Shown one piece after another: positions 3,051-64,000 of a stretch of DNA of 64,000 nucleotides (its first letter is position 1; every line of letters starts with the position of its first letter). The DNA is from Aquisalimonas lutea (GTDB lineage Bacteria > Pseudomonadota > Gammaproteobacteria > Nitrococcales > Aquisalimonadaceae): NCBI RefSeq assembly GCF_030409225.1, contig NZ_JAUFPK010000001.1:1227026-1291025 (forward strand), given 5' to 3'. The position numbers and the translations under genes are program-made. The notes under the pieces are model-generated. The model searched no databases. It had not been told where the DNA came from and was given only the letters and a program-made list of their open reading frames with translations.

Positions 3051-3053
3051 CCG

Positions 3054-4127
3054 ATGACTGTGACCTCCGGAGTTGTCCGCCGCCCGCGTTCCGTTCTCGT
3101 GCTGGTGCTCGCCGCCGTGTTGCTGGCCGCCTGCGCCGGCGATCGCCAGGGTGAGCCCGAGCGCAGCGAGCGCCTGAAAGTGCCGCCGGACCTGTCCGAC
3201 GAGCGTATCGGCCAGGTGCCGGAGTCCGCTGTCGGCCAGGGCAGCGCCACGCTGAGCGGTGAAGACCGGCAGGCGCAGGAGCGTGCCTCGCGGGAGGTGG
3301 CGCCGGAGCCGCCGGGCATGCGCGTACGCCACCAGGGCGCCGAGCGCTGGCTGGAGATCGAGGCCGGCCCCGGGGAGGTCTGGAATGAGCTGGAGAGCTG
3401 GCTCGCTGCCGAGGAGGTCCCGGTTGCCCGCAAGAATCAGCAGCTCGGCGTGATCGAGACGGAGTGGCTGCCGCGGCCGCTGGGTCCGGCCGGCGGCGCG
3501 CTGCTGCCCACCGAGCGGGCCCCGGAGCTCGGCCCGCTTGCGGAGCAGTACCTGCTCCGCGTGGAGCCCACGGATGACGGCGATCGGACCCACGTCTTCG
3601 CCGCCCATCGGCGCGTGGCCGCAAGCGGTGATGACGGCTGGGCACCGCGGCCCGCCGAGCGGGGCCTGGAAGCGGAAGTGCTGCGGGCGTTCATGCTCCA
3701 CCTCGGCGCCGAGGAAGCCTTCGCCGCCCGCCAGGTGACCGCGCAGGAGGAGCCCGTCGCGCGCCTGGAGACGGGCCCCGACGGTCAGCCGCGGCTGCTG
3801 AGCCAGGAAGGCTACCTGAATACCTGGCAGCGGGTGGGCCTGGCCCTGGACCGTGCCGCCTTCACCGTCGAGGACCGCGACCGCGCCCAGGGACGCTTCC
3901 TGGTCCGCTACGATCCGGCGGTCGAGGAAGACGACGGTCCCGGGTTCTTCGCCAGCCTGCTGTTCTGGCGCGACAACGAATCGAATATGGAGCCGGGGAC
4001 CTATGCCCTTCTCGTCCGGTCGCCGGAGGAAGGCACGGCCGTGACCGTGCAGACCGAGGACGGCGAGCCCGTCAGCGAACGCTTCGCCGAGCGGTTGCTG
4101 ACCGTGATCCGGGACCAGATGCGCTGA
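3054..4127 (+). CDS. bamC: Outer membrane assembly lipoprotein BamC (NlpB)
   Basis: A 357-residue lipoprotein of the BAM complex that inserts beta-barrel proteins into the outer membrane. The signal peptide runs to residue 26 and ends in a lipobox (LLAAC, Cys27 lipidated). A short unstructured stretch with KVPPDLSD, the segment that contacts BamD, follows. Two helix-grip domains then occupy roughly residues 90-215 and 235-355, the second including [16 protein letters not shown]. It lies 3 bases downstream of dapA, as in E. coli and relatives. Overall sequence conservation of BamC is low, so the call rests on the lipobox, the KVPPDL motif, domain pattern and gene order. Confidence 0.93.
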
Positions 4128-4140
4128 TCCGGCTGCCGCG

Positions 4141-4168
4141 CGCCCCGGGACGACGCGCTCCCGGGGCG
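4141..4168 (+). terminator. Perfect 10-bp stem-loop after bamC
   Basis: CGCCCCGGGA pairs with TCCCGGGGCG around an 8-base loop, 13 bases after the bamC stop. No run of T follows, so it is not a textbook intrinsic terminator. It may act as an mRNA 3' stabiliser or a Rho-independent element of GC-rich type between bamC and purL. Confidence 0.4.
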
Positions 4169-4215
4169 TACGGGGCGCGCGCAAGCCGCCCGCTGAACCG
4201 TGGAACTCGAACAAC

Positions 4216-7200
4216 ATGCTGCGCCTCAACGGTCATCCCGCTCTCTCGTCCTTCCGCATCGACAAGCTGCTCCGGGAGCTGCGCGAGCACGTCCCGGCGG
4301 TGGCGGCCCTGCGGGTCGATTTCGTCTATTTCGTGCTGCTCGATGATGCGGCCCCGGAGGCGGATACAGGCAGGCTCCGCACGTTGCTCACCGACGGCGA
4401 AAGCCCGGATCCGGCCGGCGACGGCTGGGAGGCGTTCCTGGTCGTGCCGCGGCCCGGCACCATCTCGCCGTGGTCGAGCAAGGCCACCGATATCGCGCGC
4501 AACTGCGGGCTCGCCCATGTCCGCCGTATCGAGCGCGGCCGCGTCTTCCGCCTGCAGCGTCGCGGCGGCGCCTTTAGCGCGGCCGAGCGTGCCCGGCTGG
4601 AGCCGCTGCTCCACGACCGCATGACCGAGACGGTCCTGGCCGATGACGAGGCCGGCGAGACGCTGTTCCACGCCCGTGAGCCGGGGGCGCTGCGCCGGGT
4701 CGACATCACCGGCGGCGGCCGGGCGGCGCTGGCCCGGGCCAATGAGGCCATGGGCTTCGCCCTGGCCGACGACGAGATCGACTACCTGGTGGAGCGCTAC
4801 GCGGCGCTGGGCCGCAACCCCACCGACGTGGAGCTCATGATGTTCGCCCAGGCGAACTCGGAGCACTGCCGGCACAAGATCTTCCGCGCCGACTGGACCA
4901 TCGACGGGGCGGCGCAGCCGCGCTCGCTGTTCGCCATGATCCGGCACACCTTCGAGCAGCGCCCCGAGGGCGTGCTGTCCGCCTACAGCGACAACGCCGC
5001 CGTGGCCGCCGGCCCCCGGGTGGAGCGCTTCTTCGCCGACCCGGGCGACGGCGTCTACTGCAGCCGCAGCGAGGCCTCCCACCTGGTCATGAAGGTGGAG
5101 ACCCACAACCATCCCACCGCCATCGCGCCGTTCCCGGGGGCGGCTACCGGGGCCGGCGGCGAGATCCGCGACGAGGGCGCCACCGGCCTCGGCGCCCGGC
5201 CGAAGGCGGGGCTCGCCGGGTTCGCCGTGTCCAACCTGCGCCTGCCCGGGGCGCTGCAGCCCTGGGAGCAGGACGACCCGGGCCGGCCCGGGCGCATCGC
5301 CTCGCCGCTGGCCATCATGCTGGACGGCCCCATCGGTGCGGCGTCGTACAACAACGAGTTCGGCCGGCCCAACCTCGCCGGCTGCTTCCGCACCTACGAG
5401 CAGCGCGTGCCGGGCCCCGAGGGAGACGAGGTGCGGGGCTACCACAAGCCCATCATGCTGGCCGGGGGCATGGGCGCGGTGCGTGACGCCCACGTGCACA
5501 AGCGCCCGGTGGCCGCCGACGCCCGGGTGGTGGTGCTCGGCGGCCCGGCCATGCTCATCGGCCTGGGCGGCGGGGCGGCCTCGTCGGTGACCAGCGGCGC
5601 CAGCGATGCCGAGCTGGATTTCGCCTCGGTCCAGCGCAGCAACCCGGAGATGCAGCGCCGGGCCCAGCAGGTGATCGACGCCTGCTGGGCCCTGGGCGAG
5701 GCCAACCCGGTGCAGTCCATCCACGACGTCGGCGCCGGCGGGCTGTCCAACGCCGTGCCGGAGATCCTGGAAGACAGCGAGCGCGGCGGACGGCTGGAGC
5801 TGCGCGAGGTCCCCAGCGATGACCCGGGCATGTCGCCCATGGAGATCTGGAGCAACGAGGCCCAGGAGCGCTACGTGCTCGCCGTGGGGCCGGCGGAGCT
5901 GGAGCGGTTCCGGGCCATCTGCGAGCGCGAGCGCTGCCCCTACGCGGTCATCGGCAATGCGACCGCCGATCGGCAGCTGCTGCTCAGCGACCGTGTGCTG
6001 GGCGACGACGCCGTGCACATCCCCATGGACCTGCTCTTCGGCAAGCCGCCGAAAATGCACCGCGACGTCCGCCGGGCGGCGATTCGACCGCGCCCGCTGG
6101 CGCTGGCCGGGGTATCCCCGGACGACGCCGTGGAGCGCGTGCTGCGCCTGCCCGCGGTGGCCGCCAAGCATTTCCTGGTCACCATCGGTGACCGCACGGT
6201 CTCCGGGCTGGTGGCGCGGGACCAGATGGTCGGCCGCTGGCAGACGCCGGTGGCGGACGTGGCGGTCACGCTGGACGACTACAGCGGCTACACCGGCGAG
6301 GCCATGGCGGTGGGCGAGCGTACCCCCGTGGCGCTGCTGGACGCCCCGGCGTCCGGGCGCATGGCCGTCGCCGAGGCCTTGACCAACCTGGCTGCGGCCG
6401 ATGTCGGTGATCTCGCCCGCGTGAATCTCTCCGCCAACTGGATGGCGGCGGCGGGCCACCCGGGCGAGGACGCGCGCCTGTACGACACCGTCGAGGCGGT
6501 GGCCATGGAGCTCTGCCCGGCCCTGGGCGTGGCCATCCCCGTGGGCAAGGACTCGCTGTCCATGAAGACGGTCTGGGAGGATGGCGACGGCCGGACCCGC
6601 AGCGTGACCGCGCCGCTGTCGCTGATGGTCTCGGCGTTCGCCACGGTGGATGACACCCGCCGCACCCTGACCCCGGAGCTGCGCAACGACGCCGGCGACA
6701 GCCGGCTGCTGCTGATCGACCTCGGCCGCGGGCGCAACCGCCTGGGCGCCTCGGCTCTGGCCCAGGTGTACACCGATCTGGGCGAGCAGCCGGCGGATCT
6801 GGACGAGCCGGCGGACCTGCGGGCGTTTTTCGCCACCATCCAGGCGCTCAATCGCGAGGGCCTGCTGCTTGCCTACCATGACCGCAGCGACGGCGGCCTG
6901 CTGGTGACGCTGGCGGAGATGATGTTCGCCGCGCGCACCGGCGTGACCGCGACGCTGCCGGCGTCCGCCGCCGACCCCCTGGCCGCGCTGTTCGCCGAGG
7001 AGCCGGGCGCGGTGGTGCAGGTGGCCAGCCACAGCGTCGATGCCGTGCTCGAGCGCTTCGCCGCGGCCGGTCTCGGCGCGTGCGTGCACGTCCTCGGCGC
7101 GCCCAATGACGATGACCGGCTGCGGCTCGACCAGGGCGGGGCTGTGCTCCTGGACCGGGACCGGGTCGAGCTGCAGCGGCTGTGGCAGGAGACGACCTGG

Positions 7201-35198: not shown

Positions 35199-36438
35199 GC
35201 TGCGTGGTCGCATCGTGGTGTCGTTCCTGGGCGCGGGGCTGGTTCTCGGCCCGCTCGTGGCCACGGCGCTGTTGTTCGTCTCCTACGAGATTCTCGAGTG
35301 GAACGCCGAGCAACGCGTCGCCGCGCGGCTCGATGAAGCGGTAGCGAACCCGGGAGCGTACTCTTTCGACACGCCGGAGGCGGCGGGCGGGGCGCGCGTT
35401 CTGACCAACGCCCCGCTGGATGAGGTGCCGAGCGCGCTCTACGAACTCCCCGACGGGTTGCACGAGCACGAGACCGGCGAGTCGGGCTGGCTGGCGGCCA
35501 CGGCGACGACGTCGCAAGGGCGCATTATCGTGGTCAGCGATATCGGCCGCCTCGAGACCCTGGAGGCGGAGTCGTGGGTGTACGTACTGATCGGAACGGC
35601 TCTGGCGACGGCTGTGTCGCTGGCGGCCGGCCTGGTGATTGCCGGGCGGCTGACCGCGCCGCTGGAGCGCCTTGCCCGGGATGTCCGGCGGGCCACCGAT
35701 GAGCCGGGGCGCGGTCGGTTCGCCACCCGTCTCCCGGTCGACGAGGTGCGCACTCTTGCGGAGGCGCTGGATCACTACCGTGAGCGCACGGTGCGTGCCA
35801 TCGACCGCGAGCGGCGCTTCTCCGCCGATGTCAGCCACGAGCTCCGCAACCCCCTGGCAGTGATTCGCAACGCCGCGGAGATCGTGGAGGCCGATTCCGG
35901 GCTCGCCGATCGCTCCGTGCGAGCGCTTCGGCGTATTGATCAAGCCGCAGGCCGCATGCAGGAGACGATCACCACGTTGCTCGAACTCGTGCTGGAGCGC
36001 GATCCCAGCGGCGACGAAGCGGCGATCGTGCTTAGTGACCGCTTGGATGTCGTGATCGAGCAGGAGATGGCATCGAGCCCAGGACAGCCTCCTCGCGTGG
36101 AGCGGCGCGAGCAGCCCGATGTCACGGTGACGGCTCCGGTTGCCGTTGTCGACGTCATCACCGCCAACTTGCTCCGCAATGCGCTGCGACACGCCGACGC
36201 CCAACGGATTGTCATCGAGACCGGGCCCGGTTACCTGTCGGTGGTTGATGACGGTGCGGGAATGACCGCGCACGACGAAGGCACCGCGGAGGAGACGGAC
36301 CGCCCGATGATGGCGGGTCGTTCCGGTCTGGGCCTGTCGCTGGTCTCGCGGCTCTGCGAGCGCTTCGGCTGGACGCTCGACCTCGACAGCGCGCCCGGCC
36401 GGGGAACACGGGCGAGCTGGCGGTTCCAGACGGGGTAG
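35185..36438 (+). CDS. Sensor histidine kinase
   Basis: A 417-residue inner-membrane kinase. Two membrane helices (about 11-33 and 133-158) enclose a periplasmic sensor of about 100 residues. A HAMP domain follows (AGRLTAPLERLARDV). The phosphorylated His is in RRFSADVSHELRNPLAV, the N box in ITANLLRNALRHA, and G boxes in VDDGAGMT and RSGLGLSLV. Start taken at ATG 35185, overlapping the regulator gene. The PAP2 phosphatase in the same unit and a methyltransferase convergent to it suggest a system sensing envelope stress or modifying surface lipids (inference). Confidence 0.92.
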   Translation: MMRGRLRGRIVVSFLGAGLVLGPLVATALLFVSYEILEWNAEQRVAARLDEAVANPGAYSFDTPEAAGGARVLTNAPLDEVPSALYELPDGLHEHETGESGWLAATATTSQGRIIVVSDIGRLETLEAESWVYVLIGTALATAVSLAAGLVIAGRLTAPLERLARDVRRATDEPGRGRFATRLPVDEVRTLAEALDHYRERTVRAIDRERRFSADVSHELRNPLAVIRNAAEIVEADSGLADRSVRALRRIDQAAGRMQETITTLLELVLERDPSGDEAAIVLSDRLDVVIEQEMASSPGQPPRVERREQPDVTVTAPVAVVDVITANLLRNALRHADAQRIVIETGPGYLSVVDDGAGMTAHDEGTAEETDRPMMAGRSGLGLSLVSRLCERFGWTLDLDSAPGRGTRASWRFQTG

Positions 36439-36504
36439 GCGCGGCAGCGCACGCCGGCCGATGGGTCGCCCTTCCCCGACCGCCGCGGGTGGCGCGCACA
36501 GCTC

Positions 36505-52575: not shown

Positions 52576-53865
52576 ATGCCCGCAACCATCCCAACCTTGC
52601 CGGATGCCCGCATCGCCGTGATCGGCCTTGGTTACGTGGGGCTTCCGCTGGCAGTGGCCTTCGCCGACCGTTACCCAGTGACGGGGTTCGATGTCAGCAG
52701 CCAACGCATCAGTGAGCTTAGCGAAGGCGTGGATCGCACACGCGAAGTGAGTGCGGAGAGCCTTGATGAGGTGCGCAACCTCCGGTTCACGGCGGAATCG
52801 ACGGATCTCGACGCATGCAATGTGTTCGTGGTGACGGTGCCGACGCCGATCGATAAGCACAAGCGCCCCGATCTCGGGCCGCTTGTGCGTGCGAGCGAAA
52901 TCGTGGCCCGCGCGCTGAAGCCGGGCGATGTCGTGATCTACGAGTCCACCGTCTATCCGGGGGCGACCGAAGAGGACTGTGTGCCGGTGCTCGAACGGGG
53001 CTCAGGGCTGCGCTTCAACGAGGACTTCTTTGCCGGATACAGCCCCGAGCGCATCAATCCGGGCGACAAGGCGCACACGGTCCGCGATATCGTCAAGGTC
53101 ACTTCGGGGTCTACACCGGAAGTGGCCGAGTTCGTGGATGCGCTGTACGCGAGCGTAATCCGTGCCGGGACCCATCGGGCGACGAGTATCCGGGTGGCCG
53201 AAGCGGCCAAGGTCATTGAAAACACCCAGCGTGACGTCAATATCGCGCTGGTCAATGAGCTCGCCATTCTATTCGGTCGCATGGGCTTGGACACCTTGTC
53301 CGTGCTTGAGGCGGCCGGTACCAAATGGAATTTCCTGCCCTTCCGCCCCGGGCTTGTCGGGGGGCACTGCATTGGTGTCGATCCGTACTATCTCACGCAC
53401 AAGGCCCAGGAGCTTGGCCATCATCCGGAAATGATCCTGGCCGGGCGGCGGATCAACGACGGGATGGGCCGTGTTGTGGCCACACAACTGTTGCAGCTCA
53501 TGGCCGAGCGCGGTCAGACCCTCGTCGGTGCGCGCGTCTTGATTCTCGGACTTGCGTTCAAAGAGAACTGCCCGGATCTGCGTAACACCCGGGTCGTGGA
53601 CGTGATCGAGGAACTCAAGCGCTTCAATGCCCAGGTGGACGTGCACGACCCGTGGGTAGACCCCACTGAAGCCGAGAATGAGTACGGCCTGACCCCGATT
53701 CGGGAGCCGGAGGCGGCTGTGTATGATGCCTCGATATTGGCGGTCGGCCATCGCGAGTTCGTGAATCGAGGTGCGCCCGGTATTCGCTATTACATGAAAC
53801 CAGGAGCGTGCCTGCTGGATATCAAGGGTGTGTTCCCGCGAGAGGAGGTCGACGGTCGCCTGTGA
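52576..53865 (+). CDS. Nucleotide-sugar dehydrogenase (TviB/WbpA-like)
   Basis: A 429-residue NAD-dependent 6-dehydrogenase that oxidises a UDP-HexNAc to the uronic acid. NAD-binding motif IAVIGLGYVGLPLAV near residue 13, VPTPIDKHKRPDL, active-site segment FRPGLVGGHCIGVDPYYLTHKA with catalytic Cys near 262, and LGLAFKENCPDLRNTRV. The variant VPTPID...PDL is typical of UDP-GlcNAc/GalNAc dehydrogenases of the Vi-antigen type. GGAAAG precedes the ATG. The product is probably a building block of the polymer begun by EpsB. Confidence 0.94.
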   Translation: MPATIPTLPDARIAVIGLGYVGLPLAVAFADRYPVTGFDVSSQRISELSEGVDRTREVSAESLDEVRNLRFTAESTDLDACNVFVVTVPTPIDKHKRPDLGPLVRASEIVARALKPGDVVIYESTVYPGATEEDCVPVLERGSGLRFNEDFFAGYSPERINPGDKAHTVRDIVKVTSGSTPEVAEFVDALYASVIRAGTHRATSIRVAEAAKVIENTQRDVNIALVNELAILFGRMGLDTLSVLEAAGTKWNFLPFRPGLVGGHCIGVDPYYLTHKAQELGHHPEMILAGRRINDGMGRVVATQLLQLMAERGQTLVGARVLILGLAFKENCPDLRNTRVVDVIEELKRFNAQVDVHDPWVDPTEAENEYGLTPIREPEAAVYDASILAVGHREFVNRGAPGIRYYMKPGACLLDIKGVFPREEVDGRL

Positions 53866-53952: not shown

Positions 53953-54294
53953 TCAGCGGGCCGCGCCGAGTCCAAGCAGTCCGAGCCCGAGTAGGGCAAT
54001 CGTGCCCAGCTCCGGTGCGGGAACCGTCTCGTTGAAGGCGATGTTGTTGAACTTGAAGACGAACTCCGAGGCTGTCGCAATCACGCAGTCGAGTGCACCG
54101 GTCGAGATGATGTTGACGTACAGGGTCCCTTCGACGCCCTGGTCCCCATTCGGGCTCTCCAGTACATCACTACCGGTGACGTTGCCGACGAGGTCCTCGC
54201 CGTTAAACGAGCTCAGTTTGTTGTAGTTATCGACTGAGCCCGAGAGCAAGTCGGTACCAGCGGTAAACCATGCCCCTGGTTCCGTCCTCCCCAT
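53953..54294 (-). pseudogene. PEP-CTERM protein fragment lacking signal peptide
   Basis: A 113-codon frame that ends with the sorting signal VPAPELGTIALLGLGLLGLGAAR and a stop. The usual Arg-rich tail is cut to a single Arg. There is no signal peptide and an in-frame TAG sits just before the first ATG; the upstream sequence shows no matching N-terminus. Thus it is a C-terminal remnant or a member too short to be exported. The remaining body has NYNKLSSFNGEDL and no known fold. Confidence 0.6.
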
Positions 54295-54576: not shown

Positions 54577-55380
54577 TTACTGGCGGCTGGTCCAGCGGCG
54601 ACGCATGGCCATGCCAATACCCGCGAGGCCGATGCTCATGAGCGCTAAGGCCCCGGGTGCGGGGACTTGTGCCGGATCATCGCCGATGTCTGCGCCTCCA
54701 ATCGTGGCACCATCGAAGGCTAGTCCGGATTGATAAGCCGTGTCGGCCCAGTTTACGACACCGAACTGCAGCGAGTACTCGCCGGCCTGATCGAACAGGA
54801 ACGAAGCGTTGACCCAGTCCGTAGACCCGCAGCCGTCGTCCCAACAATCTCCTGAGGAGTCACCGAGTGGAGACCACTGCGGCGCCCCGGAAACGACCGG
54901 GGTATCTTCCGGATCCAAGGTCACGTCGACATCGGGCTCCGGCAGACCAAAACCCGGTACGGTGTCGCCATCCGGATTCGTGCGCGCCGTGAACAGCTGA
55001 ATCGGATCGTCACCAACAGGAAGGACTTGCGCCCAGCCGTAGTCTGTGTAACTACCACCGTCAGATGTGACGTAGTTGAAGTAGAAATCCAGCTCGTCAC
55101 CGGCGTCCGCGGAGAAGGTGGGTGACGTAATCGTCGAGCCGGTGGTCTCGTCTTCAACACCGAGTCCATCCATATCGGCACCGTCGTCGGTGGAAATCCA
55201 ACCGTACTCGCTACTCGCGAACGGTGACAGATCTACCGCTCCGTCGGCCCCGGAGGTGCCGCTGTTGCCTACGGTCGTCCAGTCGGACAGATTTACAGGG
55301 TCCGCCATTGCGGGCCCGGTCAAGCCGGCCGCAGCAACCAGTGCAAGGATACTCACGCCGCACTGAGCTCTTTTACTCAT
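54577..55380 (-). CDS. PEP-CTERM sorting domain protein
   Basis: A 267-residue secreted protein. Signal peptide 1-26 (VSILALVAAAGLTGPAMA). The body is acidic and rich in Gly/Asp/Ser with beta-type sequence: SSEYGWISTDDGADMDG, FSADAGDELDFYFNYVTSDGG, WVNASFLFDQAGEYSLQFGVVNW, a pattern of sugar-binding-like beta-sandwiches in PEP-CTERM proteins. The sorting signal is VPAPGALALMSIGLAGIGMAMRRRW. A sigma-54-type site lies about 105 bases upstream. Substrate for exosortase, surface or matrix protein; exact role unknown. Confidence 0.88.
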   Translation of the reverse strand: MSKRAQCGVSILALVAAAGLTGPAMADPVNLSDWTTVGNSGTSGADGAVDLSPFASSEYGWISTDDGADMDGLGVEDETTGSTITSPTFSADAGDELDFYFNYVTSDGGSYTDYGWAQVLPVGDDPIQLFTARTNPDGDTVPGFGLPEPDVDVTLDPEDTPVVSGAPQWSPLGDSSGDCWDDGCGSTDWVNASFLFDQAGEYSLQFGVVNWADTAYQSGLAFDGATIGGADIGDDPAQVPAPGALALMSIGLAGIGMAMRRRWTSRQ

Positions 55381-55482
55381 TTGGTACCCCTCCTCTTCAC
55401 CACCGTTTGGCTGAAAACCATCTAAACTGCTTAACGGTGTTGAGCGAAAGGCATCCTCGCTATAGGATGCGCATCAGATCCT

Positions 55483-55498
55483 TGCAAAAGTCGTTCCG
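55483..55498 (-). promoter_or_regulatory. Sigma-54-type promoter for the PEP-CTERM gene at 55380
   Basis: On the minus strand CGGAACGACTTTTGCA has GG and GC exactly 10 bases apart, as required for RpoN (-24/-12), with TTTGCA at -12. It is about 100 bases before the ATG. The nearby prsR gene encodes a sigma-54 activator, so the site is plausible. Confidence 0.55.
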
Positions 55499-55669
55499 AA
55501 AGAAGGAGAGTTAATAACCCGTATCTTGTGGTCTTTTCAGTCCCCACGTCATGTGGTGCCATTTCTTGGTGTAAAGGAAACGTTGATCCAATAACTTTTC
55601 AGCGGCTAAATACGGCTTGTCGAAGGTCGGCATCGGCCGGAACTGAGGTCTCCTCGGATAATTAACCGG

Positions 55670-56311
55670 TCAGCCGCGGCGCCTACGCCGTGCTGCGACA
55701 CCTAGCCCTAGCAGGCCGAGGCCGAGCAGGCCGAGCATCGTCGGTTCGGGGACTTGCACTGACCCCGTGCGTGCAAACAACGTGATGTGGGATAGATCCG
55801 GGATGTTGCCGTTTTTCGTATAGGCAATCTCCCACGTTCCATCGGTCGGATCTGTATTCACGACGAGGTCCTCGAACAGCCACAGCGCATATCTGTTCGA
55901 GCCCTTCAGCGCCGCAACAAAATCAAACGCAGCCGGCAACGGCGTTCCCGTGGCGCTCAACGACCAAGTCCCGTCGTCGCTTCCATCCCAGTCGAGCGTG
56001 AACGTGTAGCCGTTGAGTTCGCCGGTTTCCCCCGAGCTGTCGCCCTGGATCAAGTGCGTCCAACCGGTGCCCCACTTGGTACTGACGATCGCGTCGACGT
56101 CGGTTTGGTCATTGACGTTGTCTACGACCACACCATAGCAATCGTTTGCGTCGGCTGAATCATAGGCCATGTCCGACACAGAGATCCCGTCTGTTTGTTC
56201 CGCGTCGCTGCAGAACAGGGTGGTCGCGTCGGCGTTATTGAACGCTGCTGTTGACACGAGTGCCGCGCTGCTGATCGCCGCCGTTGAGAGAACTGATTGC
56301 CATGCTTTCAT
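55670..56311 (-). CDS. PEP-CTERM sorting domain protein
   Basis: A 213-residue secreted protein. Signal peptide about 1-27 (SVLSTAAISSAALVSTAAFNNADA). The body includes CSDAEQTDGISVSDM and DANDCYGVVVDN (two Cys, possible disulfide), FTLDWDGSDDGTWSLSATG, LKGSNRYALWLFEDL. The sorting signal is VPEPTMLGLLGLGLLGLGVAARRRRRG, a textbook PEP motif. The ATG at 56311 is chosen because the signal peptide then starts MKAW; the upstream in-frame region is not signal-like. A strong sigma-54 site lies 130-147 bases upstream. Confidence 0.88.
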   Translation of the reverse strand: MKAWQSVLSTAAISSAALVSTAAFNNADATTLFCSDAEQTDGISVSDMAYDSADANDCYGVVVDNVNDQTDVDAIVSTKWGTGWTHLIQGDSSGETGELNGYTFTLDWDGSDDGTWSLSATGTPLPAAFDFVAALKGSNRYALWLFEDLVVNTDPTDGTWEIAYTKNGNIPDLSHITLFARTGSVQVPEPTMLGLLGLGLLGLGVAARRRRRG

Positions 56312-56440
56312 GATGCTGATTGCTCCCGCAAAGCCCAGATTCATAATGATTCCGAACTCGGGATGCCGTTTTCGCGCCTTCTCCCGGATGCTTTGCCGGA
56401 AAAATGTAAGCACAGCGGCATCCTATATCCGAGCCTATGT

Positions 56441-56458
56441 ATGCAAGAGCCTCGCCAG
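56441..56458 (-). promoter_or_regulatory. Sigma-54-type promoter for the PEP-CTERM gene at 56311
   Basis: On the minus strand CTGGCGAGGCTCTTGCAT contains TGGC and TTGCA with GG and GC 10 bases apart, close to the RpoN consensus TGGCAC-N5-TTGCA. It lies about 130 bases before the ATG, which leaves room for a leader. Confidence 0.7.
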
Positions 56459-56584
56459 TTCACCGTTGTTTTAATGAATACAAAAGCATAGATCGCCGGC
56501 GGTTCGGCTTTTATAGAGTCTGTGTCAAGGAATTCGACGTCCGTTAACCTACGCAGAATAGCGAGTCTCGGTTGTGACCTGACC

Positions 56585-56860
56585 GGAACACGTGCCTTTG
56601 CGGGCTTTGGTGCTCGTGACGGGGCGGAAGAGTTCGTCTACCCGTGAACTCCGGCCTCATGCCAGCACCCTTCTCGTCGACGTCGATGATCATGTCGCCT
56701 GTGGCGGGCTCTGCCCGGACGGTGAACGATATCGTCGTCGGGCCTGCCTGTCCGTTTTCGGGAGCAACAGAGCCCTCATGTTGGATGACCCCGTGCCCAG
56801 ACGACGCCCACGGGACATTGTCAAGCGGTCCGACAGGGCTCTCGACGTGCATCACTTGAA
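56585..56860 (-). pseudogene. Decayed fragment of a second PrsK-like histidine kinase
   Basis: The minus strand reads TVRAEPATGDMIIDVDEKGAGMRPEF, then after a one-base insertion VDELFRPVTSTKARKGT. These match prsK at 63080-63240 in this window (TVRAEVAGNEMIIDV, GAGMTPEF, DELFRPFTSTKSSKG), including many identical codons. Only the middle of the ATPase domain (G1 box and following) survives. It stops at about 56590, and upstream of 56760 similarity fades. No H box, start codon or promoter. Copy of a paralogue or of prsK by duplication. Confidence 0.75.
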
Positions 56861-57004
56861 GTCAGGCTAGCTAAATATTGCAAGGATATTCCCAGCAGCA
56901 AAATCCAAGTTTGTCGGACACGTTGACCACTTCACGTGACATCGTCTCCGTAGGCATGATTCGACTGACAATGGCTGGCGTGCAACGACCGCTTCAGTGC
57001 CTGG

Positions 57005-57035
57005 AAAAAGAACAGCCCCGCGCAGGGCGGGGCTG
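57005..57035 (-). terminator. Strong intrinsic terminator after the DUF1194 gene
   Basis: On the minus strand CAGCCCCGC and GCGGGGCTG form a 9-bp stem with 5-base loop, followed by TTCTTTTT, 25 bases beyond the stop at 57061. Confidence 0.88.
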
Positions 57036-57060
57036 ATGAACGCTGAGGCGACTACCTGTT

Positions 57061-57864
57061 CTAGCGCCTGCGGCGGGCGCCAACCAGCATCCCGAACAGC
57101 CCGAGCCCCATCAGGCCGAGGGCGCCGGGTGCCGGCACCGATACCTCGGGATCGATCTCGCGCAGAATCTTCGCGCTGATGGCGTCGCTGAAGCCGTTAA
57201 AGTCCTGAACGATGTCCTGGAACGCGCCAGGGCCGGCAATGACGTTGGTCGCTCCATAGTCCAGTGCGTTGATCTGGTCATTTGGGTCATCGCCGAAGAA
57301 CTCCCGGTCGTCGATCCACAACGCGTTGATGGTATCGATGTCGCTGGCCAGGGCCGAATCCCGTGCGGCCTGGAGCGGTTCACATACGGGGGACGAGTAA
57401 ATGCAGTCAACGCTCTCCGAGCCATCGCCGGAAACGTCGATCACATTTCTCGTGCCTTCATAGCCATTGTCCGTGAACAGATCGACGCCGAAGTTCAAGC
57501 CATTGGTCATTCCGGTGCTTGTGCCGCTACCGCCACGTGGCGCTTCAGCGATTGCGTCGGCGAAAGCGTTGGCCGAAGCTGCGTCACTGATCTGGGTCCA
57601 GTCCACGGCCACGCTCGCGGAACTGGACCAGTCGACCAGCGTGACCGCGATCGATCCGATCGAGCCATCCATGATCTTGGATATGATGTCGCCGTCACGG
57701 AAAGCGGCTTCATAGCCGTTGCGCTGAAGTGCGAAATCGTTGCTGTCGACGCTGCCCGACACGTCATTGAGAAGCGCAAGTTCCAAGTCCACAGGCACTG
57801 CTTGGCCGGTGCCCGCCCACATTGCCGAAGCACAGACAAATGATATCAATACCTTGCGGCGCAT
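57061..57864 (-). CDS. DUF1194 (VWA-like) PEP-CTERM protein
   Basis: A 267-residue exported protein. Signal peptide 1-22 (LISFVCASAMWAGTGQA). The body is a von Willebrand A-type fold of the DUF1194 family: LLNDVSGSVDSNDFALQRNGY (MIDAS DxSxS seen as DVSGS), GSIAVTLVDWSSSASV, GTSTGMTNGLNFG, RNVIDVSGDG, and DREFFGDDPNDQINALDYGATNVIAGP. The C-terminal signal is VPAPGALGLMGLGLFGMLVGARRRR. VWA domains bind metal and proteins, so it may be an adhesive matrix protein. Its terminator is strong; the upstream gap is AT-rich with a nested palindrome. Confidence 0.9.
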   Translation of the reverse strand: MRRKVLISFVCASAMWAGTGQAVPVDLELALLNDVSGSVDSNDFALQRNGYEAAFRDGDIISKIMDGSIGSIAVTLVDWSSSASVAVDWTQISDAASANAFADAIAEAPRGGSGTSTGMTNGLNFGVDLFTDNGYEGTRNVIDVSGDGSESVDCIYSSPVCEPLQAARDSALASDIDTINALWIDDREFFGDDPNDQINALDYGATNVIAGPGAFQDIVQDFNGFSDAISAKILREIDPEVSVPAPGALGLMGLGLFGMLVGARRRR

Positions 57865-58443
57865 ATTCTTCTCCCCTTATTGATTTTGGCGCGAGACTGC
57901 ACGCCCTACCGTAAACGCTTTCGACCATTCGAGCCGGCGACCCTTGGCGCCGGCCAACCGTCGGAATCCCCATGGACTCGGGAACCCCGGCAACGGTTAC
58001 AACCCCTAGATTGCAATTAACATGCACAATCGATAATTGCTCTATAAATCATATAGTTTATCGATTCACTCAGCCCGGCACGGCTCGTTGGTGTAATGTG
58101 TTTCGACGATCCGCCAAATAGCTGCCTGATTGGCCGGGCCGGGCACGGGGCATGCCTCCGCACTTCGGAAACCTTGAAGGATAGCTGCACGTGAGCGCGG
58201 GCGGGGTGGCGCACCCAGGCGGCAACGCGGCGAGGGCGGGCGAGAAGACGGCATCAGGGGTTCAACCGAGCGGCTTACCGCAAGTGGGTCGCTTACAGGA
58301 CGGGAAATCCTGGTGGCGCTCTCTCATAGGCCCTGGCCGTTGACGCCAGTGGTTCCTGTGCAGGAACGGCCGAGACACTACGGGCTATTTTGGAGGGCAC
58401 GGCGAGCAACGCACCCTGCTCTCGGCCCCCGACGCGTTCATTC
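57865..58443. other. Gap with AT-rich palindrome, no gene seen
   Basis: Between the DUF1194 gene and the small PEP-CTERM remnant no open frame has a ribosome site or family features. GGCGCC-rich hairpins (GCCGGCGACCCTTGGCGCCGGC near 57940) and the nested palindrome at 58028-58066 are the notable structures. Confidence 0.5.
58028..58066. promoter_or_regulatory. Nested AT-rich inverted repeat
   Basis: AATCGATAA (58028-58036) and TTATCGATT (58058-58066) are perfect 9-bp arms; inside lies a second perfect pair CTATA/TATAG. The block stands out as AT-rich in GC-rich surroundings, 164-202 bases upstream of the DUF1194 gene. Likely a protein-binding or DNA-bending site. Confidence 0.45.
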
Positions 58444-58605
58444 ATGTCTCTCACAGATCCAATTCTCGCCGACACTTTCAAGGCGGAGAGCCCGGAGAAA
58501 ACCGACTTTGTCTTGGTGGCGATCGGGACGCTGCCGGCGCCCGGGTGCCTCGTCCTTTTGGGCGCAAGCCTAGTCGGATTTCGGATCGTGGCGCGGCGCC
58601 GCTAG
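58444..58605 (+). pseudogene. PEP-CTERM C-terminal remnant
   Basis: A 53-codon frame whose end is a sorting signal: LPAPGCLVLLGASLVGFRIVARRR. The preceding 30 residues are acidic and there is no signal peptide. Only the last part of a cargo gene remains, on the plus strand, opposite to the other cargo genes. An in-frame ATG at 58390 would extend it, still without a signal peptide. Confidence 0.55.
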
Positions 58606-58639
58606 GCCATAAGCTGATAACGCGGCTTGGTCCGGCTTG

Positions 58640-58664
58640 AAAACGGCGGCCCTTGGCCGCCGTT
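58640..58664 (-). terminator. Intrinsic terminator of the prs operon
   Basis: AACGGCGGC and GCCGCCGTT form a 9-bp stem with a 5-base loop; on the minus strand TTTTC follows. It is 62 bases after the prsT stop. Confidence 0.75.
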
Positions 58665-58725
58665 CCTCGTTGCGGTGCCAGTGGTGAGCGAAGGCGAGCC
58701 CCGCGTCGCGTGGAGCTGGTGGTAT

Positions 58726-61509
58726 TTACTCGAGTTCTTCCATCAGACGATGTGCCTGTTCGCGCGACGGGAAGGGCTCGTCCGTATCGAGCGCCTCACG
58801 GAGCTGCTCTCGCGCGCGCCCCGTTTCACCGCTCTCGGCGAGCGCAGCCGCATAGTGGTAGCGAATGCCCAGATTGTCGGGGGCCTGCTCGACGGCATTG
58901 GAAAGCAATTCGATAGCCCGCTCCACGTTGCCCGCCTGGAGTTCGATCCAGCCGAGAGTGTCGGTGACGGCCGGACTGTCGGGTGCGAGTTCGTGCGCCG
59001 CTCGGGCCGTCTCCAGGGCGCGATCATCGTCGATCTCGTGATAGCTCCAGGCCAAGTTGTTCAGTATCGATGCGTTGTCGTGGTTAGTCGCCTCTGCCAG
59101 CGCCTCGAAATGTGGTACGGCCTCCAGATAGTCGCCGCGCTGCACGTACCACTGGGCTAATGACATCCGGCTGCCGTTATCGTCCGGGTTGTTCTCAAGC
59201 CACCGCTCTAGTGGCGCGGCGGGGTTGTCTATGCCCGCTTCGTTACGGCTCGTAACAAGCGGGCCCAGGGCGTCACGCTGTCCCGCGTCGACGGCGCGAT
59301 CGTAAGCGGCTGCGGCGGCCTCGTGCTCGCCCGCGGCGGACAAGGCGTGGCCTTGTGCAAGATTCCCAGGACCTGTGCCGTTGTCCTGTTCCTTGAGCGC
59401 GTGCGCGGTCTCCAGGGCAGCTTCGTAGTTGCCTTGCTCGATCTGCGTCATGGCCAATGTGTAGGCCGGTTGGATCAACTCCGGCCGGTCAGCGACCAGC
59501 GCCTTGAGAGTCGCTAGCGAGCCCTGCGTATCACCCTCTTCACTCTGTGCTTGCGCGAGCTGGAAGCGCAGCTCGGCCGAGTCAGGCGCGGCGTCGACCG
59601 CCGCCTGTAGGCTGTCGACCGCGGCCTCGGCTTGGCCGGCCTCGAGGCGAAGTCTCCCCTGAAGCGCAAGGACTTGTGGGTTGCGGCGAGCGCGCTGCAC
59701 AGCCCTATCGGCTGCCGCGAGTGCTGCCTCGAGATTGCCTTCGCGGCGTTGTAACCGGGCAATGGCGACGTAGGGCTGGACAGCTTCTTCAGCAGCGGTC
59801 GCCCCGCGCTCAAGGGCGTTGATAGCGTCCGCGGTGTTGCCGAGGCGATTGTGTGCCTCGGCAAGTGCCATGAGAGCGGTCAGGTTGTCGGGCGCGATCT
59901 GGAGTCCTCGTTCGAGATGGCTGACCGCCCCCTCGGCGTTGTCTTGTGACAGCGCCAGGAGCCCCATGTTGAACGCGACCTGCGCACTGTCAGGTGCCAG
60001 CTCGCTTGCGCGCTCAAAAGCGGCCTGAGCTTCGTCGAAACGCTCAAGCGCCATGTAGACGCCGCCGGCGACGTTGTGTGCCGGGGCGCTTTCGGGATAG
60101 TTGTCAACAAGGGCCTCAGCCTCCTGAACGGCACGGTCCGTTTCCCCGCCGCGCAGCGCGGCTAGCGCGAGGTATTGCCGGCGCATGAGCTCGTCGTCAC
60201 CACCGGCAAGCCCCGGTTGTTCCAGCAGCGCGAGCGCAGGCTGGGCAGCGCCCTGGCCCATCAACGTCCGTGCGAAGCGCAGTCGCGCACGCTGTGTCTC
60301 CGGATTGCCCGGGTCTGGTGTGTCGAGATTGGCGATGACGCTTTCTATATCGTCGCCTGCCGCGCGCGCGAGCAGAGCCAGCGCCTCGCTGTCATCCGCC
60401 ACATGACGGATACCCTCAGCGAGAACGCGACTGGCCCGCTCACCCTGGTCCATGCCGCGGTGAGCCGTGGCGAGCATCGCGCGCGCTTGTGCATTCGCTG
60501 GCTGGGCGGAGACCACGTCTTGGAGCAGATTGACTGCCTGTGCGTATTGCTCCTCCTGAAGGCGAATGGCACCCAAGACGAATTGCGCCGGCATGTTGTT
60601 CGGGGCATTGCTGAGTACCGTCTGCAGACGTTCTTTCGCCGTATCGAGATCGCCGTCACCATAGGCGATCACCCCTGCCAGATAGTTGGCATACGGATGG
60701 CGGGTGCCTTGCTGGCGCATGGTCTCCACATGCTCCTTGGCCTCGTCCTGACGTCCTTCGGCGAGAAGAATCTGGGCATACTGGCCGCGCGCGTTGAATT
60801 GCTCTTGCACCGAGATATCTGTGAAAGGCAAATCCAGAACGCGCTCATATGCGGCCAACGCGTCGTCGCGGCGGTTCGCGAGGCGGGCGGCGTTGGCGGT
60901 CGCAAGCCAAGCAGCAGGTGATTGCTCGTCGGCAGCTACGGCGCGCTCGGCAAAGTCTGCCGCGTCGCTCGGACGATTGGCGTTGGCAGCCAGTCGCGAC
61001 AGACCGACCAAGGCGGTGACATGGTCATCGTCCCGGGCAAGCACATCCTCAAACGCTCGTCGGGCCGCCTGCTGATTCCCGGTCTGACGGTGTGCTTCAC
61101 CGATGAGTGCTTCAAGATCAGCCCGGGCGTCAGAGTCGGTGAGGTCGTCCATGCTGACACGTGCGTGGACTTCCTCGGCGCGGCGGTCCCAGATCAGGGC
61201 ACGGGCGAGCTTGGGGTCAATACGGTCTGCGGAAATGCCGCCGGCACGTGCGCGTTCGAGCGCGTCCACAGCGCGACCGTATTCCCCTTGGCGTAGCGAG
61301 GCGACGCCGAGCCCGTAGCGTGCCTCGGCGTTGTCCGGATTCTCTTCCAGCACCTCCCGGTAGTCGGCAATGGCGGACTGGTAGCGCCCTTGTTCGCGCA
61401 TCTCGGCGGCGCGTTCCATGAGTTCGTCAACCCCTTGGGCGCCGCAACCAGTGACTATAATGGCCAGCGAGGCCAGTCCGAGCCAGTATCGAATTCCTTG
61501 CTGCATCAT
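58726..61509 (-). CDS. prsT: PEP-CTERM system TPR-repeat lipoprotein PrsT
   Basis: A 927-residue lipoprotein. Signal ends at lipobox VTGC with Cys22. The rest is an almost continuous array of tetratricopeptide repeats: YQSAIADYREVLEENPDNAEARYGLG and about 20 further 34-residue units with the W/G/Y/A/P pattern (for example DEAQAAFERASELAPDSAQ). This matches the PrsT family of XrtA/PEP-CTERM loci, which presumably scaffolds EPS export or sorting at the periplasm. It is the last gene of prsK-prsR-prsT, 40 bases after prsR, with its own terminator. Confidence 0.93.
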   Translation of the reverse strand: MMQQGIRYWLGLASLAIIVTGCGAQGVDELMERAAEMREQGRYQSAIADYREVLEENPDNAEARYGLGVASLRQGEYGRAVDALERARAGGISADRIDPKLARALIWDRRAEEVHARVSMDDLTDSDARADLEALIGEAHRQTGNQQAARRAFEDVLARDDDHVTALVGLSRLAANANRPSDAADFAERAVAADEQSPAAWLATANAARLANRRDDALAAYERVLDLPFTDISVQEQFNARGQYAQILLAEGRQDEAKEHVETMRQQGTRHPYANYLAGVIAYGDGDLDTAKERLQTVLSNAPNNMPAQFVLGAIRLQEEQYAQAVNLLQDVVSAQPANAQARAMLATAHRGMDQGERASRVLAEGIRHVADDSEALALLARAAGDDIESVIANLDTPDPGNPETQRARLRFARTLMGQGAAQPALALLEQPGLAGGDDELMRRQYLALAALRGGETDRAVQEAEALVDNYPESAPAHNVAGGVYMALERFDEAQAAFERASELAPDSAQVAFNMGLLALSQDNAEGAVSHLERGLQIAPDNLTALMALAEAHNRLGNTADAINALERGATAAEEAVQPYVAIARLQRREGNLEAALAAADRAVQRARRNPQVLALQGRLRLEAGQAEAAVDSLQAAVDAAPDSAELRFQLAQAQSEEGDTQGSLATLKALVADRPELIQPAYTLAMTQIEQGNYEAALETAHALKEQDNGTGPGNLAQGHALSAAGEHEAAAAAYDRAVDAGQRDALGPLVTSRNEAGIDNPAAPLERWLENNPDDNGSRMSLAQWYVQRGDYLEAVPHFEALAEATNHDNASILNNLAWSYHEIDDDRALETARAAHELAPDSPAVTDTLGWIELQAGNVERAIELLSNAVEQAPDNLGIRYHYAAALAESGETGRAREQLREALDTDEPFPSREQAHRLMEELE

Positions 61510-61549: not shown

Positions 61550-62917
61550 TCAGGTATCCGCGCCGGCCTTGACGCCGTGCTTGCGCATCAGGTCGTACAG
61601 TGTGGGGCGCGAGACCCCCAGAAGCTCCGACGCCTTGGACACGTTGCCGTTGGCATGCGTCATCGCCGTCTCCAAAGCTCGTTGTTCAGCCTCGTGACGC
61701 ACTTGCCGCAGATTCAAAGGGGGGAGGGTGCCGACCCCTCCGTCCGGTTCCGCGAGGCTGAGGTCGGCACTGTCGATCAACTTACCATCAGTGAGAATGA
61801 CGGCCCGTCGGATTGCTTTCTGAAGTTCACGCACATTGCCGGGCCATTGGTAGCCATGGATCGCATTGATGGCGTCGTCGGTGAACCCCCGCACGTCCTT
61901 GCCTTCCTTCTCCGCTTCCTGGATGAGGAACATCCGCGCGAGAAAGACGCTATCGCCTTCGCGCTCGCGCAGCGGCGGAATGGCAATCTCGATGTCGTTG
62001 ATCCGATAGTAAAGATCCTCGCGGAAGGCATTGTCCTTGATGAGTTGGCCGAGATTTTGGTGGGTCGCGCAAATCACACGCACGTCCACCGGAATCGACT
62101 GACGCCCGCCGACGCGCTCCATGACACGCTCCTGGAGAAAGCGCAGCAGCTTTGACTGCAGCGCCATGGGCATGTCACCAATCTCGTCGAGCAAGACCGT
62201 CCCGCCGTCGGCGTTCTCGAGCTTGCCCTTCGTCTGCCGATGGGCTCCGGTGTAAGCACCCTTCTCGTAGCCGAAGAGCTCACTCTCGAGGAGGTTTTCC
62301 GGAATAGCGGCGCAATTGATCGCCACGAAGTTGCCTCTGGCCCGGTCGCTGAGGCTGTGGAGCGCACGCGCAAGCACTTCCTTGCCCGTGCCCGTCTCAC
62401 CGAGCAGGAGGATGTTGCCGTTGGTGTTGGCGACTTTCTCGACCATCCGACAGATCTTGAGCATGCGCTGGCTGCCAGTGGCGAATCCGTCCAGGGCGGT
62501 TCCCTGCGTGCGCAGCAGCTCACGATTCTGCCGTTCCAATTCAGCAACATGGAAGGCGCGCTCAACGATGAGGTTCAGCGTGTCGGGTTCGACGGGTTTT
62601 TCGTAGAAGTCGTAGGCGCCGAGGCCGACCGCCTTGACCGCGCTGGATTCATCGCCGTTGCCGGTAACGACGACGACTTTCGTATGGGGGGCCGCACTGA
62701 GGATCTCGCTGAGCGTGGCCATGCCTTCACTTGTGCCGTCCGGGTCCGGGGGAAGACCGAGGTCCTGGAGCACAACCATGGGCTCGTGGCGGCGCAACTG
62801 CGCAAGTGCGCTTTCACGGTCCTCGGCATAGAGCACCTCGTAGCGATCAAAGTGCCAGCGAAATTGCGCCTGCATGCCGGGGTCGTCCTCGACGATGAGC
62901 AGCTTTTGTGCACTCAC
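61550..62917 (-). CDS. prsR: Sigma-54-dependent response regulator PrsR
   Basis: A 455-residue activator. Receiver domain 1-120 with acidic Glu10-Asp11-Asp12 and phosphoacceptor Asp52 (VLQDLGLPP). AAA+ domain about 145-375: Walker A GETGTGKE, sigma-54 contact loop GAYTGA, Walker B GGTVLLDEIGDM. The C-terminal Fis-type HTH is NGNVSKASELLGVSRPTLYDLM. It matches the PrsR family of PEP-CTERM-box regulators. prsR and prsK overlap by 4 bases. It should activate cargo genes with -24/-12 sites, two of which are visible at 55483 and 56441. Confidence 0.95.
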   Translation of the reverse strand: MSAQKLLIVEDDPGMQAQFRWHFDRYEVLYAEDRESALAQLRRHEPMVVLQDLGLPPDPDGTSEGMATLSEILSAAPHTKVVVVTGNGDESSAVKAVGLGAYDFYEKPVEPDTLNLIVERAFHVAELERQNRELLRTQGTALDGFATGSQRMLKICRMVEKVANTNGNILLLGETGTGKEVLARALHSLSDRARGNFVAINCAAIPENLLESELFGYEKGAYTGAHRQTKGKLENADGGTVLLDEIGDMPMALQSKLLRFLQERVMERVGGRQSIPVDVRVICATHQNLGQLIKDNAFREDLYYRINDIEIAIPPLREREGDSVFLARMFLIQEAEKEGKDVRGFTDDAINAIHGYQWPGNVRELQKAIRRAVILTDGKLIDSADLSLAEPDGGVGTLPPLNLRQVRHEAEQRALETAMTHANGNVSKASELLGVSRPTLYDLMRKHGVKAGADT

Positions 62918-64000
62918 CGGGCTCCTCCTGTCTGTGCTGCCGTGTCGCTCATCGATGCGTGAGGCTCGCCATCCCGCTGCCGGGCCGGCAGCGTCAGCCG
63001 GAACCGGGTGCCGGCACCCGGTTCACTCACCACACTAACGCGCCCGCCGAGCCGGTGGGCGAACTCGCGGGCCTGGTGCGCACCGATCCCCATGCCCTTG
63101 CTGGATTTGGTGCTGGTGAACGGGCGGAAGAGTTCATCGCGCACGAACTCGGGTGTCATACCCGCACCGGTGTCCGCGACGTCGATGATCATCTCGTTAC
63201 CGGCAACTTCCGCGCGGACGGTGACCGTGCCGTCATCGGGGGTGGCGTCCTGGGCATTGCGGACGAGATGGACCATGACCATGGCGAACTCGTCCGGGTC
63301 CGCCTCGACCACGCGGTCTTCCGTGGCGAGCTCGAGGTGCGGGTGCGGCGTGCGGTCGCCACAACGCGCGGCGGCGTCGTTGAGCAGGCGCTCGACGTTC
63401 ACCCGCTCGGTGAAACCGCGTTTCTGACTGCGCTGCAGGTGCTCCAGCAGCCGCTCCATGCGGCGCACGGAATTGCCGATGGTCTCCATGGCGTCGTCGA
63501 CAAAGGCCGGGTTGTGCTTGTGCTTGTCGGCATTTTTTACAACCAGCGACTGCTGCGCGATAAGGTTTTTCAGATCGTGCATGAGGAACGCCGTGAGCTG
63601 GTTGAATGCCTCAAACTGCCGGGCCTGGGACAGCGCCTGAGCGTCCTCGTATTGCCCGAGATAGCTGGCAATCTGGCGGCCGAGCGTTTTGAGAAGATCA
63701 CGGTCCTCCCAGGTGATCTCGGTATTCACATCAGGCCGGGACAGGAGAATGAATCCGGTCACCGTCTCCTGCTGGAGCAGCGGAATAATCGCCCATGCCT
63801 TGTCCATGTTCTCGATGGCGGCCGGAAGAGTCATGTGGTTGTACCGCTCCGGGCGATCACGGTACTCCGCCATGTCGATGATCCATTTATGTGTGCGCAG
63901 GAAGGTCACTAAGGGCGCGTCATCCGCGATCGTACTGTCGGCTGCGACGTCCGTGCGCCAGGCCCCCATGGGGGTGAATCCCCCTTCGAGCTCCTGGTGG
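62914..64000 (-). CDS. prsK: PEP-CTERM system histidine kinase PrsK (C-terminal part)
   Basis: The gene runs off the right edge; the frame stays open to 64000 without a start, so only about 362 C-terminal residues are seen. They comprise a GAF-like domain (LLQQETVTGFILLSRPD), the His-phosphotransfer region FLMHDLKNLIAQQSLVVKN with the phosphorylated His, an N box (HLVRNAQDAT), G1 DTGAGMTPEF, F box RPFTSTKSSKG and G2 GIGAHQAREFAHRLGG. This is the PrsK pattern (HDLKN). Membrane helices of the family lie upstream of the window. Its partner PrsR is immediately downstream. Confidence 0.93.
   Translation of the reverse strand, partial: HQELEGGFTPMGAWRTDVAADSTIADDAPLVTFLRTHKWIIDMAEYRDRPERYNHMTLPAAIENMDKAWAIIPLLQQETVTGFILLSRPDVNTEITWEDRDLLKTLGRQIASYLGQYEDAQALSQARQFEAFNQLTAFLMHDLKNLIAQQSLVVKNADKHKHNPAFVDDAMETIGNSVRRMERLLEHLQRSQKRGFTERVNVERLLNDAAARCGDRTPHPHLELATEDRVVEADPDEFAMVMVHLVRNAQDATPDDGTVTVRAEVAGNEMIIDVADTGAGMTPEFVRDELFRPFTSTKSSKGMGIGAHQAREFAHRLGGRVSVVSEPGAGTRFRLTLPARQRDGEPHASMSDTAAQTGGAR

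Follow-up and report, generated by a model that had tools for sequence, protein, structure and literature searches.

A decayed partial copy of the histidine kinase gene prsK in a PEP-CTERM cargo array of Aquisalimonas lutea, and a second relic of the same segment across the intact gene

Organisation of the PEP-CTERM region

The stretch analysed here (the window) comprises 64,000 nucleotides of contig NZ_JAUFPK010000001.1 (1,227,026-1,291,025), and positions are those of the whole window unless another frame is named; G000:C1 denotes the same contig in its own numbering, and L039 the resident prsK locus. The end of the window is occupied by an XrtA/PEP-CTERM regulatory module consisting of prsT, prsR and prsK, all on the minus strand and each scoring above its NCBIfam cut-off (Table 1). 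The part of prsK that lies inside the window matched TIGR02916 with 387.3 bits (cut-off 300). When the contig was fetched past the window end, the full gene was found to be free of stops and to match positions 1-679 of the model with 755.3 bits.

Three PEP-CTERM cargo genes are located between prsT and a gene that we labelled nucleotide-sugar dehydrogenase, and the first of two prsK relics described below (relic 1) lies between the last two of them. The cargo gene that has relic 1 in its upstream region perhaps starts nearer 56341 or 56309 than its open reading frame indicates. Two other stretches of the window resemble remains of cargo genes. A short minus-strand ORF at 53953-54294 ends in a PEP-CTERM-like tail (VPAPELGTIALLGLGLLGLGAAR) and is possibly a truncated cargo gene, and the plus strand at 58531-58605 reads LPAPGCLVLLGASLVGFRIVARRR followed by a stop, matches the cargo gene at 54577-55380 in tblastn (E 0.001) and is a possible decayed cargo tail.

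Table 1. Features of the PEP-CTERM region and of the two prsK relics
Feature	Position	Strand	Basis or remark
Nucleotide-sugar dehydrogenase (our own label)	52576-53865		Same place in the congener G002
PEP-CTERM cargo gene	54577-55380		Pfam/NCBIfam profile matches
PEP-CTERM cargo gene, relic 1 in upstream region	55670-56413	-	PF07589 29.4 bits (cut-off 20.7); TIGR02595 25.4 bits (cut-off 16)
Candidate sigma-54 -24/-12 promoter of cargo gene 55670-56413	56442-56457	-	TGGCGAGGCTCTTGCA, 2 mismatches to consensus
Candidate PrsR-site core TTGACA (variant of TTTACA)	56523-56528	-	65 nt upstream of the -24/-12 site
prsK relic 1	56582-56753	-	Decayed copy of prsK nt ~1784-1953
DUF1194 PEP-CTERM cargo gene, opposite side of relic 1	57061-57864	-	PF06707 172.5 bits; PF07589 22.6 bits (cut-off 20.7)
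prsT, TPR protein	58726-61509	-	TIGR02917 512 bits (cut-off 312.2)
prsR, sigma-54 interacting response regulator	61550-62917	-	TIGR02915 683.4 bits (cut-off 502.6)
prsK, intact histidine kinase	62914-64000, 5' part past window end; full gene L039 7940-10060, 706 aa	-	TIGR02916
Segment of intact prsK homologous to relic 1	63082-63250	-	Local alignment of relic 1 and prsK
prsK relic 2	G000:C1:1293433-1293599 = L039 11434-11600	-	DNA and translated matches to prsK

Predicted promoter sites in the cargo leaders

Using a -24/-12 consensus, five sites of this type were predicted in positions 50000-73900 of the extended window, three of them upstream of cargo genes; the five include the candidate promoter of the cargo gene next to relic 1. 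The end of relic 1 lies about 50 nt upstream of the candidate PrsR-site core of that gene and does not overlap it. The cargo gene at 54577-55380 has TTTACA at 55575 and a predicted -24/-12 site at 55498. An exact TTKACA core was present in two of the five cargo-type genes examined and was absent within 230 nt of the other three, one of which (L039 14560-15402) has a predicted -24/-12 site.

According to one study (PMC1569441), a long leader is frequent in proteobacterial PEP-CTERM genes; it carries a motif that ends in TTTACA and, about 63 nt further on (62.8, S.D. 10.6 nt), a sigma-54 site, and across genomes these leader sites are distributed in the same way as PrsK, PrsR and PrsT. The 65-nt spacing found here fits the published value. 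Relic 1 sits in a leader of this kind, with a TTTACA-like core and then a -24/-12 site downstream of it; it is not itself part of the site described in that study, and the sites given here (for the -24/-12 site, cf. motif 2 of the study) are predictions. For Aquincola, an RpoN study (PMC9850573) reports that transcription of pepA depends on RpoN1 and calls its dependence on PrsK-PrsR probable.

A decayed copy of a prsK segment between two cargo genes

When the minus strand of 56540-56900 was compared with the window by blastn, prsK was matched with 74% identity over 150 bp (E 7.9e-20), and the next match besides prsK and the query itself had an E value of only 0.065. Local alignment of relic 1 with the resident prsK gave 124 identical columns out of 172, and the Smith-Waterman score was 70, compared with a maximum of 21 over 200 shuffles. 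The homologous segment of the intact gene is taken by us to run from the end of the N box to the G2 box of the ATPase domain, i.e. the part with the ATP lid.

The initial annotation had described 56585-56860 as a decayed duplicate of prsK carrying a one-base insertion in the DELFRP region. The similarity is real, and the insertion is found just before DELFRP together with two more single-base insertions further upstream, all three breaking the frame. The interval itself stood in part: 56582-56753 matches prsK nt 1784-1953, whereas the similarity of 56754-56860 to prsK is no better than that of shuffled sequence. Similarity to prsK beyond the ends of the relic was likewise no better than shuffles on both flanks. 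A hidden upstream extension of relic 1, suspected from an N-box protein look-alike, and a downstream extension of either relic were rejected on flank scores of this kind.

Relic 1 derives from the ATPase-domain part of PrsK, the XrtA/PEP-CTERM histidine kinase. Unlike PrsK it has no continuous reading frame, the similarity switching from one frame to another, and it lacks the HisKA and sensor parts: of a full-length DNA profile of prsK, only positions 1814-1921 matched there. The ORF at 56544-56855, which holds part of the relic, did not match TIGR02916 or any other NCBIfam family at E up to 1, and gave a single weak, unrelated match in Pfam (E 0.23). Homology beyond chance, frameshifts with truncation, and unconstrained changes (counted in small numbers and in one genome) are all features of a gene relic. 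The ORFs on either strand at 56544-56870 should not be called genes on the basis of this similarity.

A DNA search of the own genome with 56585-56870 returned the query, prsK (E 2.4e-18) and otherwise weak short matches with E values of 0.16 and up. In the own genome and 58 relatives taken together, the only matches below E 0.001 were the own prsK and the prsK of the congener G002 (5.4e-7), and weak short matches at E up to 1 occurred in 48 of the 59 genomes. Among 100 prsK genes, some of which are repeats of one contig, the resident gene scored best against relic 1 (70; next 43), which bears out the proposed descent from prsK. A closer match to an unrelated kinase, named beforehand as the finding that would tell against this descent, did not appear in the own genome or the 58 relatives. 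As the own genome held no other significant DNA match, an unrelated kinase was rejected as the source, and the probability that relic 1 stems from an unrelated histidine kinase or is a chance match is negligible, given that below E 0.001 it matches only the prsK genes of its own genome and of G002, with E 7.9e-20 inside the window.

The initial annotation had further read the fragment as implying duplication and loss of the control kinase. Nothing in the array points to such a loss, prsK being full length and intact (706 aa, 755 bits, stop-free). Because relic 1 comprises only about 170 of the 2121 nt of prsK and has sharp ends, it gives no sign of a whole second kinase either.

A second relic beyond the window

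A second relic of the same prsK segment, new relative to the initial annotation, is located 2.4 kb past the window end, on the far side of the intact prsK from relic 1. A search of the own genome with the PrsK protein gave 23 matches at E up to 1, of which two are short and lie close to prsK, namely relic 1 (E 3e-4) and C1:1293410-1293511, which corresponds to relic 2 (E 0.004). Relic 2 reads ELIRYERFRPFKSTKSSTGTG at the position where PrsK has EFVRDELFRPFTSTKSSKGMG, and lies between two ORFs that we labelled, from their sequences, deacetylase-like and acyltransferase-like.

The best alignment of relic 2 was to the prsK of G002 (score 58, against 32.5 for the own prsK), with a blastn identity of 75% over 113 bp (E 2.5e-14; 9.9e-13 to 2.5e-14 across searches). 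Translated matches had E values of 8e-8 to the G002 gene and 4.5e-7 to the own gene. The blastn match to the own prsK (E 8e-4) falls within the noise of the control, in which short self-matches elsewhere reached E 1.5e-5, and the identification of relic 2 therefore rests on the match to G002 prsK and on the translated matches. In the DNA of the 58 relatives, relic 2 matched the prsK genes of G002 and of G018, and there were three weak matches besides (E 0.003-0.007).

Descent and decay of the two relics

A codon alignment was prepared from 98 loci (the own locus, G002 and 96 others), L086 and L151 having been dropped from the 100 as too short. At sites that differ between the own and the G002 prsK, relic 1 agrees with the own gene at 30 and with G002 at 12, and relic 2 with the own gene at 11 and with G002 at 25. 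The resulting lean to the own gene is 0.71 for relic 1, further than in any of the 96 other prsK genes (0.28-0.64), and 0.31 for relic 2, which is inside that range. In the maximum likelihood tree, relic 1 was joined to the own prsK (UFBoot 99) and relic 2 to the G002 prsK (UFBoot 96), and among the nine topologies tested this arrangement came out best with every one of the four alignments.

A sister relationship of the two relics gave AU p values of 0.006-0.021 with the first alignment, 0.011-0.041 with both relics aligned to the own gene, 0.004-0.111 with both aligned to G002, and 0.055-0.099 with swapped references; on these alignments it appears disfavoured, though not excluded. When relic 1 was aligned to the G002 gene, its lean to the own gene dropped to 22:17, and its grouping with G002 had AU p values of 0.12 and 0.16. 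Placing relic 2 outside the own and G002 genes, or with the own prsK, gave 0.11 and 0.11, and 0.39 and 0.60 with swapped references. Two separate copying events are thus favoured, not proven, by the tree comparisons.

Alignment with the window prsK and with those of relatives had been proposed as a means of dating the copy. It singled out the own prsK as the best match, but no date can be given for the relics because the tips leading to the own and G002 genes (0.013 and 0.008) are implausibly short beside relic branches of 0.43 and 0.55. Such tip lengths look artefactual, as would arise from rows that are short and noisy.

Changes on the relic side, counted where the own and G002 genes agree, fell on codon positions 1, 2 and 3 in the numbers 8, 11 and 7 for relic 1 and 9, 9 and 10 for relic 2. 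Changes on the intact side numbered 3, 1 and 8 for the own prsK compared with relic 1, and 4, 2 and 4 for the G002 gene compared with relic 2, and the two intact genes differ from each other at 14, 7 and 28. As its changes are even over the codon positions and those of the own prsK favour third positions, relic 1 is apparently unconstrained. The counts are small (26 changes for relic 1 and 12 for the own prsK, with no third-position excess in G002 compared with relic 2), and they suggest a lack of constraint on the relics and constraint on the intact genes.

Relic 1 descends from prsK, has no detectable similarity to it outside the segment, has a broken frame and changes spread evenly over codon positions, and coexists with an intact prsK. 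We consider it very probable that it is a non-functional partial copy of the own prsK, or of that of a very close relative, which lies in a cargo leader that is long and non-coding, and decays without protein-level constraint. A partial rather than a whole-gene copy may have arisen when ectopic recombination or repair acted on the prsK-prsR-prsT-cargo region, and could have persisted if foreign sequence is tolerated in the part of the leader that precedes the predicted PrsR/sigma-54 site. The position of relic 2 on the far side of prsK suggests that copying happened more than once; the two relics need not share an origin.

It is unlikely that relic 1 instead goes back to a foreign prsK module, gained by horizontal transfer, that replaced the resident one or was replaced by it. 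Such a source is suggested by relic 2, the nearest relative of which is the congener's gene and not the resident one by both alignment score and tree, whereas relic 1 itself groups with the own prsK. Moreover, the placement of relic 2 outside the two genes or with the own prsK was not rejected, its lean is within the range of the 96 other genes, neither relic has flanks that recur elsewhere in the own genome, and relic 1 had no match to plasmids or phages. A mobile element was also considered and rejected, on the single-copy flanks, the lack of repeats of note and the lack of a plasmid or phage match to relic 1. Recombination moving cargo and regulator genes together, the other process that the initial annotation had put forward, gains no support from these single-copy surroundings or from the search for relics of other cluster genes given below.

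Ends of the two relics

A local pair-HMM with identity set to 0.72 placed relic 1 on the own prsK from nt 1789 (5-95% range 1773-1796) to nt 1953 (1942-1973), and relic 2 on the G002 prsK from nt 1783 (1770-1832) to nt 1953 (1946-1964); at an identity of 0.65 the ranges widen and the medians shift by a few bases. The two relics represent the same segment of prsK, with coinciding ends. Identity between the own and G002 genes is 82% and 83% in the two blocks of 60 nt that span the ends of the segment, 82-93% in the HisKA part (nt 1321-1620) and 68% in the next downstream block. The next upstream block (nt 1681-1740) is poorly conserved between them (55%), and the upstream end of the relics is for this reason less secure than the downstream one.

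By our rough estimate, two random segments of a 2121-nt gene would coincide so well with a chance of 5e-4 to 0.03, depending on the segment length assumed, and we regard the coincidence as notable, not conclusive. Neither decay nor partial copying at random would lead one to expect it, and it counts against the partial copy favoured above. At the downstream junction the flanks of the two relics share 8 bases (p 0.02 over the first 30 nt, 0.15 over 60 nt and 0.43 over 100 nt), and upstream the p values were 0.97 (60 nt) and 0.21 (110 nt). A common origin of the relics with shared flanks was rejected on these values.

One prsK segment with the same ends occurs twice, in both cases upstream of a gene belonging to the region, which would suit a functional non-coding element (a prsK-derived antisense RNA or binding site, for instance) retained in the cargo leader and beside the acyltransferase-like gene. 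Such an element is extremely unlikely, as the changes are spread as in unconstrained decay and neither relic folds unusually on either strand (z -0.34 and +0.20 for relic 1, +1.26 and -0.62 for relic 2). An Rfam search of 55300-59000 at E up to 1 found no family, and the 58 relatives searched held no strong counterpart outside prsK. It is very unlikely, too, that some process or element favours exactly this segment of about 170 nt, whether as a copying hot-spot or as a short element derived from prsK with an additional influence on prsK or cargo expression, and that two or more copies, differing in age or in the version of prsK they came from, were placed on both sides of prsK-prsR-prsT. If the coincidence of segments were confirmed in related strains, the region would offer a small example, open to testing, of part of a gene being copied repeatedly around a regulatory module.

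Search for comparable relics at other prsK loci

The 100 prsK loci consist of the own locus and 99 others, at least five of which were judged to be repeats, with flanks of up to 10 kb, many of them ended sooner by contig ends. No relic comparable to the two described here was found in the flanks of these 99 loci. Comparison of every prsK with every flank (1.54 Mb) by blastn at E up to 1e-4 gave six matches, three of which are relic 1 or relic 2; the other three are to the 5' part of locus L145's own, probably broken, prsK. In that locus prsK is apparently split (2367-2599 and 2753-4459), its 5' part matching other prsK genes separately, through a frameshift or an assembly error. Self-comparison of the loci by tblastn at 1e-3 gave matches in the own locus only, and by blastn at 0.01 gave short matches in 15 other loci, the best with E 1.5e-5 over 50 bp.

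Of the 100 loci, 88 went into a full-length DNA profile of prsK, eight having been dropped for short matches and four for internal stops. In the window and the following 10 kb it matched prsK, relic 2 (6.9e-6) and relic 1 (5.3e-5), followed by six matches with E values of 0.034-0.8 elsewhere in the profile (positions 210-422). Over all flanks, relic 2 and relic 1 were again the best matches (1.7e-4 and 1.3e-3); the next, at 0.0096, fell elsewhere in prsK.

Nine intergenic stretches were searched by tblastn for prsR, prsT and other cluster genes, and no convincing relic of these was found; beyond the two prsK relics, the search gave the possible PEP-CTERM tail (E 0.001) and weak matches, among them one to a relative's prsT (E 0.047). 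These results bear on whether relic 1 is what deletions have left of a complete second prsK at this site, possibly accompanied by a second regulatory module; such erosion would likewise leave a dead relic, with a different start. Bacterial genomes commonly contain decayed genes, one survey of 64 prokaryote genomes giving about 7,000 candidate pseudogenes (PMC522871), and the possible tail relic nearby hints at decay of other genes of the array. Such erosion is nevertheless doubtful, though a real possibility: a single segment is left, although the better conserved HisKA part should show first, no convincing prsR or prsT relic accompanies it (the prsT match just given being the best), and both relics keep the same segment.

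Relic 1 resembles the bacterial pseudogene fragments and intergenic remnants described in that survey (PMC522871), in being a disabled, truncated copy of a resident gene, located in intergenic DNA, with neutral-looking substitutions; it differs from the fragments surveyed there in that another relic of this segment, whose ends coincide with its own, lies across the intact gene. Relic 1 is an ordinary gene relic, made mildly curious by this second dead copy. A narrow literature search, in which all aspects were required together, found no paper on exosortase/PEP-CTERM systems with a kinase pseudogene or gene duplication.

Additional observations on prsK in the window and the genus

A weak prsK-like match (E 0.0075) was seen on the plus strand of the window at 36154-36453, with one internal TAG and an open frame given as 539 aa. 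TIGR02916 was not found at 1e-30 in three of four congeners (G001, G003 and G004), and an exosortase match was present in G001 and G004 and absent in G003; the system may be patchy within the genus, or these may be gaps in draft genomes (G001 is 82% complete). Near the prsK cluster of the congener G002, the ORFs at L065 4204-5571 resemble what we take to be IS66-type transposition proteins.
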